From Deltaproteobacteria bacterium (GTDB taxonomy: Bacteria > Desulfobacterota > BSN033 > UBA1163): a DNA stretch of 42,831 nucleotides. The stretch lies in assembly GCA_016874935.1 (NCBI GenBank), contig VGSS01000010.1:1-42831 (forward strand), written 5' to 3'. The notes beneath the pieces are model-generated. The model ran no database searches and was not told where the DNA came from. It worked only from the letters and a program-made list of their open reading frames with translations. This document shows, one piece after another, positions 13,744 to 20,812 of this stretch (position 1 is the first letter of the stretch; each line of letters opens with the position of its first letter). Position numbers and translations under genes: made by a program.

Positions 13744-15338
13744 GGACCATTGTCCAGGCTCTTTCCTTGCTTCTCTTCTCACTCCTCTTCTTCCTTGCTA
13801 CTTATAAGCTTCCGGATTGGCTTCTGGCAGATATCTACCTCCGGCTCGACCCCTTATTAGGTTTGAATGCCATCTTTGCCGCAAGGGAGGTGATTGGCCG
13901 CTCCCTCTGGGGATTGGTGACAATCGGGGCAACTCTTCTCATCGGCAGGTTCTTCTGCGGCTATATCTGCCCCATGGGAATTTCAATCGATTTCCTGAAC
14001 CATCTCTTCTTCCGAAAGAAAAAATATAAAATTTTAAAGACCGAAACAAGTCTCCGGAAAGCAAAATACCTTTTGCTGATCGTCTTTGTCATGGCTGCAA
14101 TCACGGGCCTGTCCCTCGCTTTTCTCATGGACCCTATTGCACTTTTGACCCGTTTTTATACGTTTTTCATCTATCCTCTGGCGATAACCCTGATCAATCT
14201 TCTTCTTGACCTTATCCGCCCATTATCCAAAGCCCTGGGATGGATAACCCTCACTCATCTTCATTACTTTCAACCTGTCTTTTATATGTCTGCCATCACC
14301 TTGCTCATCTTCGGAGGGATCATCGCGCTTAACCTTCTTGCCCCGCGATTCTGGTGCCGTTATCTCTGCCCCCTTGGAGCGATGCTCAGTTTGATTTCTC
14401 CATTGGGAATTTTTAAACGGAGGGTCAGCGAGGAATGTAATGAATGTAAGAAATGCCAGAAGAATTGCCCCATGGGAGCCATTCTGGATGATCCCCGAAA
14501 GACACACCTCCAAGAATGCTTCCAATGCCGGACCTGCGTTCATGTCTGCCCGCAGAACGCCATTACTTTCCCTGCCTCCCTTTCGATTGGTGGAGAATAT
14601 TCAAAGATAGATCTTTCCCGCAGAGGCTTTATCTATTCCCTTGCCGGAGGTTTAGGGGTTGGTTTTTTAGCCACGCATACCCCCTTCACTCGGCTCCAGG
14701 GTAAACATCACCTCATCCGTGCTCCAGGTGCGATTCCTGAAACCGAGTTCCTGCGAACCTGCATTCGATGCGGGGAGTGCATGAAATCCTGCCTGACCAA
14801 TACGCTTCAACCCTGCCTATGGGAATCGGGTTTCTCAGGGCTCTGGACTCCGAAGATGGACCTTCGCCTGGCTCCCTGTGACCAGAACTGTAATGTCTGC
14901 GGCAAGGTCTGTCCCACCCAGGCCATCCGTTCTGTCTCACTTGAGGAGAAGAATCATGCAAAAGTGGGAACCGCCATCTTACTCAAGGAAAAGTGCCTGG
15001 TCTGGGCTCAGAACAAGATCTGTCTGATCTGCGACGAAATCTGTCCATACAATGCCATCGTATTTCGCCCTGTGGAGGGGTATGGTCGGCCCTTTGTCAT
15101 TGCCTCGAAGTGTAATGGCTGTGGGTTCTGTGAACAGAGATGCCCTGTCCTTGGAGATTCAGCTATTGTTGTTGTGCCAGACGGCGAGATCCGTCTTAAA
15201 GAAGGCTCTTATGTGGTTGAAGCAAAAAAACTTCAGCTCGAATTTAAAGCTGATCCTGGAGATGACAAGTTCATTTTAGAAGGATCGGGTTTTAAACTCG
15301 ATGGGGATACGGGGGAGAAAAAGAAAGTAAAGTATTAA
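13740..15338 (+). CDS. Membrane polyferredoxin, NapH-NapG-like fusion
   Basis: The 532-residue protein begins with about five hydrophobic segments (residues 1-225) carrying the paired motifs CGYICPMGI and CRYLCPLGA, typical of NapH/CcoG-type membrane ferredoxins. Next come CNECKKCQKNCP and CFQCRTCVHVCP. A second module starts near residue 295 with SRRGFIYSLAGGLGVGF, resembling an internal twin-arginine/membrane segment, and continues with APGAIPETEFLRTCIRCGEC as in NapG/MauM periplasmic ferredoxins. Three more cysteine clusters follow: CNVCGKVCP, CLICDEICP and CNGCGFCEQRCP. The natural reading is a fusion of quinol-side NapH and periplasmic NapG, passing electrons to the exported reductase or DUF362 partner. 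Its TAA overlaps the convergent trpS stop within TTAA 15335-15338. Confidence 0.87.
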   Translation: MRTIVQALSLLLFSLLFFLATYKLPDWLLADIYLRLDPLLGLNAIFAAREVIGRSLWGLVTIGATLLIGRFFCGYICPMGISIDFLNHLFFRKKKYKILKTETSLRKAKYLLLIVFVMAAITGLSLAFLMDPIALLTRFYTFFIYPLAITLINLLLDLIRPLSKALGWITLTHLHYFQPVFYMSAITLLIFGGIIALNLLAPRFWCRYLCPLGAMLSLISPLGIFKRRVSEECNECKKCQKNCPMGAILDDPRKTHLQECFQCRTCVHVCPQNAITFPASLSIGGEYSKIDLSRRGFIYSLAGGLGVGFLATHTPFTRLQGKHHLIRAPGAIPETEFLRTCIRCGECMKSCLTNTLQPCLWESGFSGLWTPKMDLRLAPCDQNCNVCGKVCPTQAIRSVSLEEKNHAKVGTAILLKEKCLVWAQNKICLICDEICPYNAIVFRPVEGYGRPFVIASKCNGCGFCEQRCPVLGDSAIVVVPDGEIRLKEGSYVVEAKKLQLEFKADPGDDKFILEGSGFKLDGDTGEKKKVKY

Positions 15339-16321
15339 AGCCACTCCGATTTAACGCCGATTTTTCTTCTCACCTCATCCATCACTTCTGATGCAATGGC
15401 TTTACAGTGAGCGGCTCCCGATTTTAAGACATCGACAATATATTCCGGTCTGGCGTTCATCTCTTTAACACGAGCCTGAATCGGCCCCAACTCCTCAACC
15501 ATATTTTTATAGAGAATCTCTTTACACTCGATGCATCCGATCCCTGCTGTCCGGCAGCCCTGCTCAACACCTGAAATTTCATCCGGTTTCGAAAAGGCCT
15601 GATGCATCGTAAAGATATTGCAATGTTCCGGATGTCCGGGATCGCTCCTCCGCTCCCGATGCGGACAGGTGGCTGCGCTCCTTAATTTCTCCCGGATAAC
15701 TTCAGGAGCCTCAAGTAGTCCAATGGCATTATTCATCGACTTGGACATCTTGGCCTGTCCATCGGTCCCGGCAATTCGGGGAGCGGTGGACAGGAGAACC
15801 TTGGGTTCGGGGAAGGTCTCTCCATAACGGGTGTTGAACTTTCGGGCAATTTCCCTCGAGAGCTCCACATGCTGGGTCTGATCTTCTCCCACCGGGACAT
15901 ACCCCGCCTTATAGATAAGGATGTCAGCCGCTTGAAGCACAGGATAGCCCAGAAGTCCCATATTGATATTCTGCCGGTGCTGTTTCGACTTCTCTTTGAA
16001 CTGGGTCATCCTTTCCAGCTCTCCGATAGGGGTAACGCTGTTAAAGACCCAGGCCAGTTCAGTATGCTCGGGCACATGCGACTGAACAAAGACGATGCAT
16101 TTATCTGGAGTCAACCCGCAGGCGACAAGGATGGTGGCGGTTTCCAGAATCCTCTTCTGCATCAACTCCATCTCATATTCAATCGTGATGGCATGATAAT
16201 CCACGACAGAATAGATGCAGTCATAACGCTCTGTCAATTGAACCCAGTTGCGAATGGCCCCCACGTAATTCCCGATATGAATCTCGCCCGAGGGCTGAAT
16301 TCCGCTGAAAATCCGATCCAT
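15335..16321 (-). CDS. trpS: Tryptophan--tRNA ligase with a probable 4Fe-4S site
   Basis: A class I aminoacyl-tRNA synthetase of 328 residues that charges tRNA-Trp. HIGN is at residues 15-18, and KMSKS follows GTDGQA near residues 190-196. The C-terminal part has cysteines 234, 256, 263 and 266 in the pattern C-x21-C-x6-C-x2-C (ending CRTAGIGCIEC). The Thermotoga maritima enzyme is known to bind a 4Fe-4S cluster through C-x22-C-x6-C-x2-C at nearly the same place. I infer that this enzyme also carries a cluster near the anticodon-binding region. The selenoprotein gene ends 15 bases upstream on the same strand, so the two are probably cotranscribed. Confidence 0.96.
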   Translation of the reverse strand: MDRIFSGIQPSGEIHIGNYVGAIRNWVQLTERYDCIYSVVDYHAITIEYEMELMQKRILETATILVACGLTPDKCIVFVQSHVPEHTELAWVFNSVTPIGELERMTQFKEKSKQHRQNINMGLLGYPVLQAADILIYKAGYVPVGEDQTQHVELSREIARKFNTRYGETFPEPKVLLSTAPRIAGTDGQAKMSKSMNNAIGLLEAPEVIREKLRSAATCPHRERRSDPGHPEHCNIFTMHQAFSKPDEISGVEQGCRTAGIGCIECKEILYKNMVEELGPIQARVKEMNARPEYIVDVLKSGAAHCKAIASEVMDEVRRKIGVKSEWL

Positions 16322-16336
16322 GGGTTACTCCTTCCA

Positions 16337-16798
16337 TTAACTCTTATTTAAAAACTCGCTGAGAATCTGGGCGGTCTTTTCTACGATGGCCGTGCACTTT
16401 TCCCGGCCTCCTGAAGTCAGCCACTTCTTGTTTTCCTCAGGATCATCCAAATGAAGACCGACCAGGTCATAACAGTTTCTGCTTCCGAATTCCTTCTCGA
16501 ATTGCTCCCAGAATTGCTGACATTTCTCATAAACCTTTAAAAGGGTTTCCCGGTCCTTGGGATCGGTTCTGCCCATCTTCATTCCAATGGCCATAATCGA
16601 CGCAGTAAAGGCTCCGCAGAGCGACCCTTTCCGACCCACCCCTCCACCGAATCCGGTAGCTATTCTGGGGAGGAAAGAATCCTCATAGCCCAAATACTCC
16701 TTGAAACTCAAGGAGACCGACTCCGCTCAGTTGTACCCCTGACCAAAATAACCTTTGGCTTTCTCCGAAACCGATTTTGCATCCATTTTTTCTTCCAT
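16337..16798 (-). CDS. C-GCAxxG-C-C family selenoprotein (in-frame UGA as selenocysteine)
   Basis: From ATG 16798 the frame reads 23 residues ending KGYFGQGYN, meets TGA (bases 16729-16727), and continues without another stop to TAA at 16337, 153 residues in all. The start is set by AGAGGAG (complement of 16805-16811), 6 bases upstream. The text around the TGA, GYN-U-AESVSLSF then PRIATGFGGGVGRKGSLCGAF, matches the C-GCAxxG-C-C redox family, in which the TGA position is the first conserved Cys. The remaining cysteines are at 61, 93, 109 and 135. A SECIS-like hairpin follows the UGA. Selenoprotein members of this family are known. A standard caller would start at 16711 and lose the active residue. 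It probably acts in redox chemistry; the substrate is unknown. Confidence 0.88.
16697..16715 (-). promoter_or_regulatory. Bacterial SECIS-like hairpin after the UGA codon
   Basis: In the mRNA, 11 bases after UGA, CUCCUUG pairs perfectly with CAAGGAG around the loop AGUUU. The apical loop begins 18 bases after the UGA and has G at its second position followed by U. This satisfies the usual description of bacterial SECIS elements (loop about 16-37 bases after UGA, G among the first two loop bases), which bind SelB. It lies inside the coding region, as bacterial SECIS elements do. Confidence 0.8.
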
Positions 16799-17239
16799 GA
16801 CCATCTCCTCTGTTTGAAAATAATTCCATTTTAAATGAACTAAACTTTTTTTTCAAACTACCTTAATCTTTCTATCGATTTTTTCAATACAAACGGGTTT
16901 TTCCATTGAAATAATCAATTTGACTTATGAAAAAATTTTAGCGAGGATCAGTTTGTTTTATTTTTCCCAAAGCAAGAGTATTTATAATTCGAGTCTGTCC
17001 ATAAACTAAAGGTTTCCAGAAAGATTGTCATTCCGGCGAAAGCCGGAATCCAGGGTTCCCGGTGAAAATCGGGATCCAGTCTTTGAGTTGGTTCCCGACT
17101 TTCGTCGGGACGATGTCTGGATGCCCCCGTATCAAGCACGGGGCAAGCTCCTTAAGTCCGGCATAACGGAAAAAGACATTTATAAACAGACTCTAATTCA
17201 TCATCCTATGAAAAATCAATCAAGAAAAAGGAGGTCACC
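16799..17239. other. Divergent intergenic region between selenoprotein gene and yedE
   Basis: This 441-base gap contains both 5' regions, an AT-rich segment at about 16815-16990, and the MITE-like element at 16991-17193. No gene was found. AT-rich stretches such as TTGACTTATGAAAAAATTTT near 16920 could host promoters, but I cannot assign one with confidence. Confidence 0.5.
16991..17193. repeat. MITE-like element with imperfect terminal inverted repeats
   Basis: The ends GAGTCTGTCCATAAA (16991-17005) and TTTATAAACAGACTC (17179-17193) are inverted repeats matching at 13 of 15 positions. Inside are hairpins of a dispersed type: ATTCCGGCGAAAGCCGGAAT (17030-17049), a TTCCCGACTTTCGTCGGGA stem, and CCCCGT with ACGGGG near 17127-17142. 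There is no coding capacity. It fills most of the gap between the divergent selenoprotein and yedE genes, so it may affect their promoters. Confidence 0.65.
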
Positions 17240-18334
17240 ATGTCAAAGGCAGTCCAATTTTTTGGTTCCCGTTGGGGAATCATTTCAGTAGGGGCTTTTA
17301 TCGGGATTTTTGCTCCCCTTTTACAGAAGTGGGGGAATCCGGCTAACATGGGAGTCTGTGTAGCCTGTTTCGATAGAGACATTGCAGGCGCTCTTGGGCT
17401 TCATCGGGCAGCCGTTGTCCAGTATATGCGGCCTGAAATCATCGGTTTTGTCCTTGGGGCGCTGATCGCCGCCTATGCATTTAAGGAATTTCGGGCGCGG
17501 GCTGGCTCTGCCCCCATTGTTCGATTTGTCCTTGGGGCTTTTGCCATGATCGGAGGTCTGGTCTTTTTGGGATGCCCGTGGCGGGCCGCGCTCCGTCTGG
17601 CCGGAGGCGATGGGAATGCAATCTTTGGCCTGCTCGGACTGATCGGAGGAATATGGGTGGGCACACTCTTTCTGAAAGGCGGTTACAACCTGGGACGGTC
17701 TCAAAAAACTCATACCTCGGTTGGATGGTTGTTGCCATTAATTATGCTCGGGTTCCTTGTTCTGATGCTGATCTTTCCACAGGTTCAGGGGCAGGAAAAA
17801 AGCGGAGTCCTATTTTACAGCGTCAAAGGTCCAGGATCCATGCACGCCCCGCTTATCGTATCGTTAGTGGTTGGCCTCTTGATTGGATTCTTGGCACAGA
17901 GAAGCCGGTTCTGCACCATGGGGGCGATCCGGGATTTTGTCCTGTTTAAACAAATCCATCTCCTTCTGGGGTTTATTACCCTTGTCGTGGTCGCCTTCAT
18001 CGTCAATCTGATATTGGGACAGTTTAACCCCGGTTTTGAAAAACAACCGGTGGCTCACACGATGAGCCTCTGGAACTTCGGCGGCATGGTCCTGGCGGGA
18101 TTGGCCTTTGCCCTTGCAGGAGGCTGTCCGGGACGACAGCTCTTCCTTGCTGGTGAAGGCGATGGGGATGCAGCGGTTTTTGTACTGGGGATGATCGTTG
18201 GAGCGGGTTTTGCACATAACTTCGGCCTGGCCAGCTCTCCGGATGGAGTCGGTCCCTACGGTATTCCGGCTGTAATCATTGGGCTTCTCACCTGTCTGTT
18301 TATCGGCTTCACCATGCGAAAAGAAGTCGCCTAA
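17240..18334 (+). CDS. yedE: YedE-family putative selenium transporter
   Basis: An integral membrane protein of 364 residues with about ten hydrophobic segments. It has two YeeE/YedE-type half-motifs, GCPWRAALRLAGGDGNA around residue 113 and GGCPGRQLFLAGEGDGDA around residue 294. The N-terminal GNPANMGVCVACFDRDIAGALG block is typical of the selenium-associated YedE branch. The family is inferred from gene neighbourhoods to import selenium compounds; YeeE relatives transport thiosulfate. AAGGAGG lies 6 bases before the ATG. It heads a same-strand run with TusA-like, YedF, class V aminotransferase and DUF3343 genes, and the divergent neighbour is a predicted selenoprotein, which strongly supports selenium over sulfur as cargo. 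Confidence 0.88.
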   Translation: MSKAVQFFGSRWGIISVGAFIGIFAPLLQKWGNPANMGVCVACFDRDIAGALGLHRAAVVQYMRPEIIGFVLGALIAAYAFKEFRARAGSAPIVRFVLGAFAMIGGLVFLGCPWRAALRLAGGDGNAIFGLLGLIGGIWVGTLFLKGGYNLGRSQKTHTSVGWLLPLIMLGFLVLMLIFPQVQGQEKSGVLFYSVKGPGSMHAPLIVSLVVGLLIGFLAQRSRFCTMGAIRDFVLFKQIHLLLGFITLVVVAFIVNLILGQFNPGFEKQPVAHTMSLWNFGGMVLAGLAFALAGGCPGRQLFLAGEGDGDAAVFVLGMIVGAGFAHNFGLASSPDGVGPYGIPAVIIGLLTCLFIGFTMRKEVA

Positions 18335-18350: not shown

Positions 18351-18569
18351 ATGAGCAAAATCATTGATGCCCGAGGGCTTTCTTGTCCACAGCCTGTTCT
18401 TCTGGCTCTGAATGAGATTAAAAAGATCAACAAGGGAGAGATTGTCATCCTCGTGGATACGGACACTTCCAAAGAGAACGTTTCCCGAGCAGCAACAACG
18501 CAGGGGTGGGATGTGAAAAGTATCGAGTCGGAAGGAATCGGATACCGCCTCACCATTTCGAAGGGGTAA
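18351..18569 (+). CDS. TusA/SirA-like sulfurtransferase (chalcogen carrier)
   Basis: A 72-residue protein of the TusA family with the conserved motif DARGLSCPQP, where Cys12 would carry persulfide or perselenide. I set the start at ATG 18351 because AAAAAGGAG lies just upstream and the family begins here; the longer frame from 18279 runs inside yedE. It lies 16 bases after the yedE stop and is translated from the same operon. Its likely role is to receive selenium or sulfur taken in by YedE and hand it to downstream enzymes such as YedF or a selenophosphate synthetase encoded elsewhere. Confidence 0.9.
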   Translation: MSKIIDARGLSCPQPVLLALNEIKKINKGEIVILVDTDTSKENVSRAATTQGWDVKSIESEGIGYRLTISKG

Positions 18570-18807: not shown

Positions 18808-19389
18808 ATGAAACAGATCGATTGTCGTGGATTGGCGTGCCCGCAACCGGTCATTACTACCAAAAAGGCGCTTGGGGAGATGGCACAGGGTCAGTTGACG
18901 GTTATTGCCGATAATCCATCAGCCCGAGATAATGTGGAGCGGTTCGCCCAGAGCCAGGGGGCCATTGTGAATATTGAAAAGAAAGGAAACGATTTTTATC
19001 TCCATATCGAGAAAAAAAGCGCCTGCGATCTTGTTGCATCCACCCAAATAGTTGAGAAAGTGGTCGTCTACATTAACTCTGATGTTCTTGGAGTTGGAGA
19101 AGAGGCTTTAGGCGCTACCCTGATCCGGTCATTCCTACACGTTCTCTCGGAAATGGAAACCAAACCATCAACCATTATATTTATTAACTCCGGAGTTCGC
19201 TTGGCCACCGAGGGATCTGTGGTTTTAGAAGACCTCCAAAGCCTTTCGGAAAAGGGGGCGGCCATTCTCTCCTGCGGAACCTGTCTCGATTTCTATGGAA
19301 TCAAAGAGAAGCTCAGGGTTGGTATCATCTCCAATATGTATGACATTGCCAAATCTCTTTTCGAAGCTGATCGATTAATCAGGCCGTGA
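18808..19389 (+). CDS. yedF: Selenium metabolism protein YedF
   Basis: A 193-residue protein with an N-terminal TusA-like domain, DCRGLACPQP with Cys11 as the carrier residue (residues 1 to about 70), joined to a DsrE-like C-terminal domain containing FINSGVRLATEGS and CGTCLDFYG. This two-domain layout defines the YedF family, long linked by genome context to SelD and selenium-dependent molybdenum hydroxylases. It probably relays selenium between YedE/TusA and a selenide-using enzyme in the cytoplasm. AAAGGAAGG precedes the ATG. No selD gene is seen in the window, so that partner must be elsewhere. Confidence 0.92.
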   Translation: MKQIDCRGLACPQPVITTKKALGEMAQGQLTVIADNPSARDNVERFAQSQGAIVNIEKKGNDFYLHIEKKSACDLVASTQIVEKVVVYINSDVLGVGEEALGATLIRSFLHVLSEMETKPSTIIFINSGVRLATEGSVVLEDLQSLSEKGAAILSCGTCLDFYGIKEKLRVGIISNMYDIAKSLFEADRLIRP

Positions 19390-19433: not shown

Positions 19434-20588
19434 ATGATCTATTTTGATAATGCTGCCACTTCCTGGCCAAAACCTCCTGAGGTGAAAGAGGCGATGGTCA
19501 GATTTATGGACGAGATCGGCGCCAATCCAGGCCGCTCCGGCCATCTGCTTTCGATTGAAGCGGCAAGAATTATTTACGATGCAAGAGAAGCCCTGTCAAA
19601 CCTCTTCAATGTCAAAGACCCATCCCGAATCGTCTTTACCCTGAATGCCACCGAGTCCGTCAATTTAGCCTTAAAGGGTATTCTTCGCCCTGGCGATCAT
19701 ATCATCACCAGTAGTATGGAACACAATTCTGTGATGAGACCCCTCAGGGATTTGGAAAAAAGGGGGATCGGTTTGACAGTGATTCCCTGCTCCCCGACAG
19801 GGGAGTTAGACCCAGGGGATGTCAAAAAGAAGATTCAATCCCATACGAAAATGATTGTCATCAATCACGCCTCCAACGTGACAGGAACCCTGCTTCCAAT
19901 CAGGGAAGTCGGGGAGAGCGCCCGTGAGAATGGTATTCTTTTCCTTGTGGATGCGGCACAGACGGCTGGAGCCTATCCCATTGATATAGAGGGTGACAGA
20001 ATTGACCTACTCGCCTTCACTGGCCATAAGAGCCTCTATGGACCTCAGGGGACAGGGGGATTGGTCATCGGAGAAAATGTCAACATTCAAGACCTGACCC
20101 CCTTGAAGCACGGGGGAACAGGAAGCCGGTCCGAATTTGAGTTGCAGCCCGATTTTTTACCGGACCGCTATGAAAGCGGAACGCCCAACGCAGTCGGTAT
20201 CGCCGGGCTTCTTGCCGGCGTCCAATTTGTTCTGAAGAAAAGAACAGAGCCTATTCGCCAATATGAAACCCTTTTAATCGGGAATTTGATTGAAGGGTTG
20301 AGAGAGATTCCAGGGATTTCCTTCTACGGCCCTGAAAATCTCACAGACCGGATGGCCACTCTCTCCTTTAATATCAAAAACCTCTCTCCGTCGGAGGTAG
20401 CTTTTCGCTTGGAGAATGAGGCTGGCATCCTCTGCCGACCCGGGCTCCATTGCGCTCCCTCGGCCCACAAAACCATCAGAACCTTTCCGGAGGGAACGGT
20501 CCGGTTAAGCCTCGGCTATTTCAATACCCTCGAAGAGGTTCATCTGGCAATTAAAACCATTGATCGTATTGCACGGAGCAACAGTTAA
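19434..20588 (+). CDS. Class V aminotransferase, cysteine desulfurase/selenocysteine lyase-like
   Basis: A PLP enzyme of 384 residues close to the cysteine desulfurase family found beside YedE/YedF (the EF2568 type). The PLP lysine is in TGHKSLYGPQG (Lys near 199), the aspartate in LVDAAQTAGA, and a catalytic-loop cysteine in RPGLHCAPSAHK (near 340). It would release sulfur from cysteine or selenium from selenocysteine as a bound persulfide or selenide. Its place between yedF and the DUF3343 gene points to selenium supply, and sulfur supply to the adjacent lipoate genes is also possible. AAGGTGAAGAG precedes the ATG, and 2 bases separate it from the next gene. Confidence 0.88.
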   Translation: MIYFDNAATSWPKPPEVKEAMVRFMDEIGANPGRSGHLLSIEAARIIYDAREALSNLFNVKDPSRIVFTLNATESVNLALKGILRPGDHIITSSMEHNSVMRPLRDLEKRGIGLTVIPCSPTGELDPGDVKKKIQSHTKMIVINHASNVTGTLLPIREVGESARENGILFLVDAAQTAGAYPIDIEGDRIDLLAFTGHKSLYGPQGTGGLVIGENVNIQDLTPLKHGGTGSRSEFELQPDFLPDRYESGTPNAVGIAGLLAGVQFVLKKRTEPIRQYETLLIGNLIEGLREIPGISFYGPENLTDRMATLSFNIKNLSPSEVAFRLENEAGILCRPGLHCAPSAHKTIRTFPEGTVRLSLGYFNTLEEVHLAIKTIDRIARSNS

Positions 20589-20590
20589 TT

Positions 20591-20812
20591 ATGCCTTACG
20601 CTGTCATCCTCTTCTCATCCACCCACCATGCGATCCGGGCTGAAAAGAAAGCCAAGGAGAATGGATTCTCCGTAAAACTCATCCCGGTTCCTCGACACCT
20701 CAGTTCGGACTGCGGGGTGTGCCTTCGTTTTTCCTGCGAAAAGAGGGAAACCCTCGAGTGCCTTCTCCAAAAAGAGGGTGTGAAAATGGAAGGGGTGCAT
20801 CTCCTCGAGTAA
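20591..20812 (+). CDS. DUF3343 protein, putative Se/S carrier
   Basis: A 73-residue protein with the DUF3343 layout: a short beta-alpha start (YAVILFSSTHHAIRAEKKAK), the LIPVPRHLSSDCG segment and a cysteine pair in DCGVCLRFSC. The family is regarded as a possible selenium or sulfur carrier because it travels with YedF, SelD and the class V aminotransferase; biochemical proof is thin as far as I know. It starts 2 bases after the preceding stop codon and closes the selenium operon before a repeat element. Confidence 0.85.
   Translation: MPYAVILFSSTHHAIRAEKKAKENGFSVKLIPVPRHLSSDCGVCLRFSCEKRETLECLLQKEGVKMEGVHLLE

Follow-up and report, generated by a model that had tools for sequence, protein, structure and literature searches.

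Family context and the gene under study

The C_GCAxxG_C_C proteins (PF09719/TIGR01909) are already recognized as a family with selenoprotein members. NCBIfam names TIGR01909 'C-GCAxxG-C-C family (seleno)protein', 'C-GCAxxG-C-C family protein' forms one row in the selenoprotein table among the parts of PMC9312934 at hand, and the accessible portion of PMC13188914 tabulates the C_GCAxxG_C_C selenoproteins as form 1 and form 2. The existence of selenoprotein members, stated in the original prediction, agrees with these listings. As the accessible tables of PMC13188914 carry no Sec motif for either form, the protein described here is not assignable to form 1 or form 2. The string 'GCAxxG' is absent from the retrieved passages of the GOS paper PMC2398784, and the literature found under the family name held no description of its function. 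Two further NCBIfam families, NF045669 (DVU_1555 family) and NF045501 (HUGP/GUXX-star fusion selenoprotein), are related to our protein, but its scores (54.1 bits against a cut-off of 103 and 55 bits against 325) fall far under the membership thresholds. By profile comparison the only convincing solved relative of the domain is a distant one, split-Soret cytochrome c (1h21), which is reported in the available text of PMC5701242 to have an extra iron centre.

In the window, the whole stretch of 42,831 nucleotides that was analysed, an open frame on the reverse strand runs from ATG 16798 to a TAA ending at 16337 with exactly one internal TGA (16729-16727, codon 24), reproducing the predicted coordinates (Table 1). 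With the TGA read through, residues 22-148 of the product match PF09719 (cut-off 27 bits), and TIGR01909 is likewise exceeded (cut-off 47.4 bits). The protein shares with the family the conserved cysteines, the GGG and CGA motifs and scores above both curated cut-offs, and differs from the family at large in belonging to a subgroup with the motif G(Y/F)N-U-AES. The family pattern of a conserved Cys or Sec, the CGA cysteine and two further cysteines is represented by U24, C61, C109 and C135 in all 17 orthologs, and these four columns are invariant in 25 of 25 aligned family rows. Genes at least 64% identical were confined to its own taxonomic family among matches at E 1e-12 in 395 genomes of the phylum, and the eight matches in plasmid records were every one below 60% identity. 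The gene is therefore a correct, well-supported addition to a known selenoprotein family, a firmly supported subgroup of a catalogued group; the description of it as undetected applies at most to simple gene callers, as the family is already named '(seleno)protein' in NCBIfam and listed in reviews.

An AGAGGAG stretch lies a few bases 5' of the ATG. The first in-frame start 3' of the TGA is TTG 16711, 15 nt after it, so a mechanical list of open reading frames truncates the gene there, just as had been expected of a standard caller; annotation that treats TGA as stop starts at this TTG or later and loses the first 29 residues including Sec24. A promoter-like site at 16856-16828 on the same strand was discarded, being at chance level (two sites found in the region, where shuffled sequence gives 1.4 on average).

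Table 1. Features of the selenoprotein locus and its neighbourhood in the window
Feature	Coordinates	Strand	Basis
trpS, tryptophanyl-tRNA synthetase, downstream, 15-base gap	15335..16321	-	TIGR00233 315.7 bits
C_GCAxxG_C_C family selenoprotein gene, 153 aa, predicted Sec24	16337..16798	-	PF09719 104.4, TIGR01909 84 bits, TGA read through
Predicted bacterial SECIS hairpin CTCCTTGA-GTT-TCAAGGAG	16697..16715	-	starts 11 nt past TGA; six upper pairs in 17/17 orthologs
In-frame TGA, codon 24, predicted selenocysteine, first conserved Cys column	16727..16729	-	TGA in 17/17 orthologs
Shine-Dalgarno-like AGAGGAG region 5' of ATG	16799..16818	-	sequence
YedE-type putative selenium transporter, divergent neighbour	17240..18334	+	TIGR04112 490.3 bits
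TusA-like protein (longest ORF from 18279; ATG 18351)	18351..18569	+	PF01206 63.3 bits
YedF, TusA + DsrE domains	18808..19389	+	TIGR03527 223.4 bits
Class-V aminotransferase, cysteine desulfurase family	19434..20588	+	TIGR01977 479.7 bits
Putative Se/S carrier (PF11823, DUF3343)	20591..20812	+	PF11823 92 bits; no NCBIfam match

Conservation of the in-frame TGA and of the coding signal around it

Among the 17 genomes of the taxonomic family that were searched, 16 contained some relative and 15 an ortholog proper, giving a set of 17 orthologous genes with the window's own included; one genome (G001) had no match and another (G015) had a split-Soret-like cytochrome only. The other 16 orthologs are 64-94% identical to the window protein. 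Eight named loci come from metagenome-assembled genomes under the labels Deltaproteobacteria, Thermodesulfobacteriota, Syntrophaceae or 'uncultured proteobacterium'; their stretches exactly duplicate 8 of the 17 orthologs and so add no independent count. Codon 24 is TGA in all 17 genes, never TAA or TAG, and each gene has this single TGA, always within G(Y/F)N-U-AES.

Codons were compared pairwise among the 17 orthologs in ungapped alignment. Ahead of the gene, at codons -45 to -25 (5' of the ATG), 3.5% were identical, 3.9% synonymous and 92.6% non-synonymous, while the coding stretch before the TGA (codons -16 to -1) gave 43%, 31% and 26%, respectively. Beyond the TGA the corresponding shares were 63/20/17% across the hairpin codons (+1 to +12), 32/44/25% at +13 to +37 and 39/31/30% at +38 to +127. 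As the shares are alike on both sides, constraint on the protein is about as strong in the stretch preceding the TGA as in that following it, and it fades near the ATG. These data bear directly on the reading of the TGA as a genuine stop, with the protein beginning at TTG 16711 or later and the upstream piece left as a dead leader. The nearby TTG is compatible with it, as is the absence of selC from the assembly (see below), but a dead leader would hardly conserve its codons through synonymous changes, keep TGA in all 17 genes or be aligned with a cysteine in relatives, and we regard a true stop as very improbable.

Exchange of selenocysteine and cysteine at column 24

The 32 family matches included 30 members with loci that could be aligned, and column 24 was U in 24 and C in 5 of these; the lone exception was the split-Soret-like cytochrome, in which a nearby Cys was left unaligned. 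In the wider phylum, 116 of 395 genomes had a match with E no higher than 1e-12. A set of 20 new loci from phylum relatives was read, which were the best-scoring ones and not a random sample; in two (L083 and L084) the stretch starts past the column, and of the 18 readable ones 7 had TGA there and 11 had Cys. Among another 11 loci fetched for other reasons, 3 had U at this column and 8 had C. The comparison with Cys-containing homologues that had been proposed hence places the TGA of GYN-U-AESV exactly at the first conserved cysteine, a position at which relatives alternate between Cys and Sec and all 17 orthologs keep TGA. The 17 Sec-keeping orthologs together with the phylum-wide Cys relatives provide material for studying the function of Sec at the first cysteine position, whether catalytic or metal-binding.

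The same genome encodes a second C_GCAxxG_C_C gene (L052, G000:C2:21768-22187) with TGA at the first Cys (GFH-U-SES), which exceeds the TIGR01909 cut-off and is probably a further selenoprotein; its counterpart in another genome (L113, G002:C20) likewise has TGA at the first Cys. Two more paralog groups in the taxonomic family (L041, L042, L043, L045, L046 and L050) also carry TGA at this cysteine, and in five of these six paralogs an 8-pair stem (G-U allowed) follows with its loop 18 nt past the TGA, the stem of L041 being shorter or bulged. An in-frame TAG read as pyrrolysine was considered for four loci of relatives; in three of them the TAG is C-terminal, like an ordinary stop. The fourth, a distant member (L106, G235:C13:24598-25032), has an in-frame TAG right before the CGA motif (GGMG-TAG-VCGA), for which pyrrolysine, sequencing error and decay cannot be told apart.

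The SECIS-like hairpin

The hairpin past the TGA forms 8 bp with a 3-nt loop or, alternatively, 7 bp with the loop AGUUU, and the latter form starting 11 bases past the TGA is the one originally proposed. The bSECIS rules quoted in the accessible part of PMC13188914 are a loop of 3-9 nt, a stem of 4-16 bp, a G within the first two loop positions, a UGA-to-loop distance of 16-37 nt and an MFE of at most -7.5 kcal/mol. The hairpin agrees with these rules, with a UGA-to-loop distance of 18-19 nt and an MFE of -13.7 kcal/mol for 48 nt, as predicted. Taken singly it is only modestly above chance: synonymous recoding of the same 15 residues placed a stem of 8 or more pairs within the permitted range in 362 of 5000 trials and reached at least equal folding stability in 154 of 5000, such stems also occurred in other parts of the ortholog genes (46 of 1649 in-frame positions), and shuffling of dinucleotides yielded z scores between -1.0 and -1.5. 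A scan of the window with Rfam at gathering scores returned no match. The hairpin is therefore weak evidence alone, and its near-invariance across the 17 orthologs is the strong part.

Serine and leucine have six codons each. The hairpin codons TCC, TTG, AGT, TTC and AAG nevertheless recur in 16, 16, 17, 14 and 17 of the 17 orthologs, respectively. The six upper pairs are standard in every ortholog, the two lowest are lost in 4 and 1 orthologs, and one pair is altered on both sides, from G-C to A-U, in L034. The covariation is too sparse for significance: out of 500 shuffles, between 46 and 65 attain each of the five measures. Sliding the pairing partner by 1-3 bases lowered hairpin pairing in the 17 orthologs from 96% to 37-62%, a test biased towards the hairpin because the structure was derived from the same sequences. 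Conservation, and not the lone hairpin, carries the case for Sec.

Selenium machinery and the genetic code

The genome encodes selA (626.1 bits), selB (371.4 bits) and selD (388.1 bits), each above its cut-off. Its selD (L018, G000:C187:1840-2766) is a selenoprotein gene too, since it carries a TGA of its own in GUAAK, which fits the UxxK motif given for SelD in the consulted part of PMC9312934. The original prediction had asked for selA, selB, selC and selD and held that a lack of selB or selC would count against it; three of the four genes are present, whereas selC is absent from the assembly (206 contigs, 90.9% complete), where no candidate passed the Rfam threshold among the 150 scored of 412 first-look candidates. 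With the selC of G005, the closest relative by the selenoprotein, as DNA query, only chance matches of 15-23 bases were obtained (E at least 0.46, all 6 candidates scored), and ARAGORN detected no tRNA-Sec in 11 loci of the genome, in the window or in L075. In relatives the picture is different. ARAGORN called tRNA-Sec in the 10 loci covered, and selC scored at least 76 bits in 15 of the 17 family genomes, the remaining two being G007 with a marginal 47.0 bits and the window's own genome with none. The 3.7-kb neighbourhood of selC in G005 has no long match in the window's genome; what matches there are pieces of about 30-100 bases, several of them with many hits. In G005 and in G016 the distance from selC to a contig end is no more than about 550 bases. 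The absence of selC here is likely an assembly gap.

An open frame alone cannot separate Sec from another residue, which leaves room for a changed genetic code in which TGA is read as Trp or Cys. TGA is, however, the terminator of 5 of the 15 open reading frames of the window that were counted as genes (of the 7 among them that were compared with families, only YedF ends in TGA). In addition, the genome has selA, selB and selD, and the TGA is followed by a SECIS-like hairpin; we give a changed code next to no probability. Taken together, the TGA in all 17 orthologs, the Cys/Sec exchange, the coding constraint on both sides, the conserved hairpin and the presence of selA, selB and selD support the selenoprotein reading, and codon 24 of the 153-residue protein almost certainly specifies selenocysteine, although the insertion itself is something we infer. 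SelB with Sec-tRNA(Sec) would read the UGA as selenocysteine, aided by the hairpin 11 nt downstream.

Possible role of Sec24

Sec24 would replace the first of four conserved cysteine positions (Sec24, Cys61, Cys109 and Cys135), and most likely it serves as the reactive selenol in a helical thiol/selenol redox protein of the cytoplasm, with one of the other cysteines as the resolving residue. From the family name and from what most selenoproteins do, we lean, with some reserve, towards a catalytic role for Sec24; the redox role, the cell location and the partner of the protein are likewise what we infer.

In a second reading the protein still contains selenocysteine, but Sec24 would join Cys61, Cys109 and Cys135 in coordinating an iron-sulfur or other metal centre and would not be a catalytic selenol. 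A profile built from 25 family members finds 1h21 at E 4e-5 with the first Cys and the CGA Cys aligned, an extra iron centre is reported for split-Soret cytochrome c, the four positions are conserved throughout the family, and the split-Soret-like cytochrome of G015 matches both PF09719 (45.7 bits) and 1h21. Against this, Cys109 is unmatched in the G015 cytochrome, its first Cys is unaligned and its PF09719 match begins only past that residue; it also differs from the window protein in having CxxCH haem motifs, which the latter is without, and a leader-like N-terminus. A search of the PDB with the single sequence gave weak matches only and no solved relative (best E 0.12). The AlphaFold model, which consists of helices only and carries no metal, is of moderate quality (mean pLDDT 73.6, below 50 at residues 51-59), and Foldseek found no solved fold for it at E 0.001 or better, a null that says little because the model is only moderate. 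By analogy with most selenoproteins we prefer a redox-active selenol, and we consider a ligand role for Sec24 unlikely.

The extra iron centre of split-Soret cytochromes may be [2Fe-2S]. As might be the case in this relative, the four positions might bind an iron-sulfur centre with selenocysteine as a natural ligand, making a compact selenol-ligated cluster protein that could act alongside YedE and YedF in the sensing or handling of selenium; this specific version is more doubtful still than metal ligation in general. The redox-active selenol remains our preferred reading.

Gene neighbourhood

All genes that the original prediction placed in the divergent cluster are present, YedE, YedF, the TusA-like protein and the DUF3343 protein, but their order is YedE, TusA-like, YedF, a cysteine-desulfurase/SclA-like enzyme that had been omitted, and the PF11823 protein. 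This enzyme resembles the selenocysteine lyase SclA but stays below the model cut-off (NF040779, 379.1 bits against 525). Across the ortholog loci, yedE occurs within 1.5 kb in 6 of 17, so that the link to a selenium cluster is common to only part of the orthologs. At the same distance trpS is the more frequent neighbour, found in 11 of the 17 loci; a functional meaning of this neighbour, which might be sought in the near-cognate relation of UGA and tRNA-Trp, was dropped as speculative. The gap between the divergent genes contains an inverted-repeat-like stretch at 17025-17150, ATTCCGGCGAAAGCCGGAAT, which has the look of a dispersed repeat.
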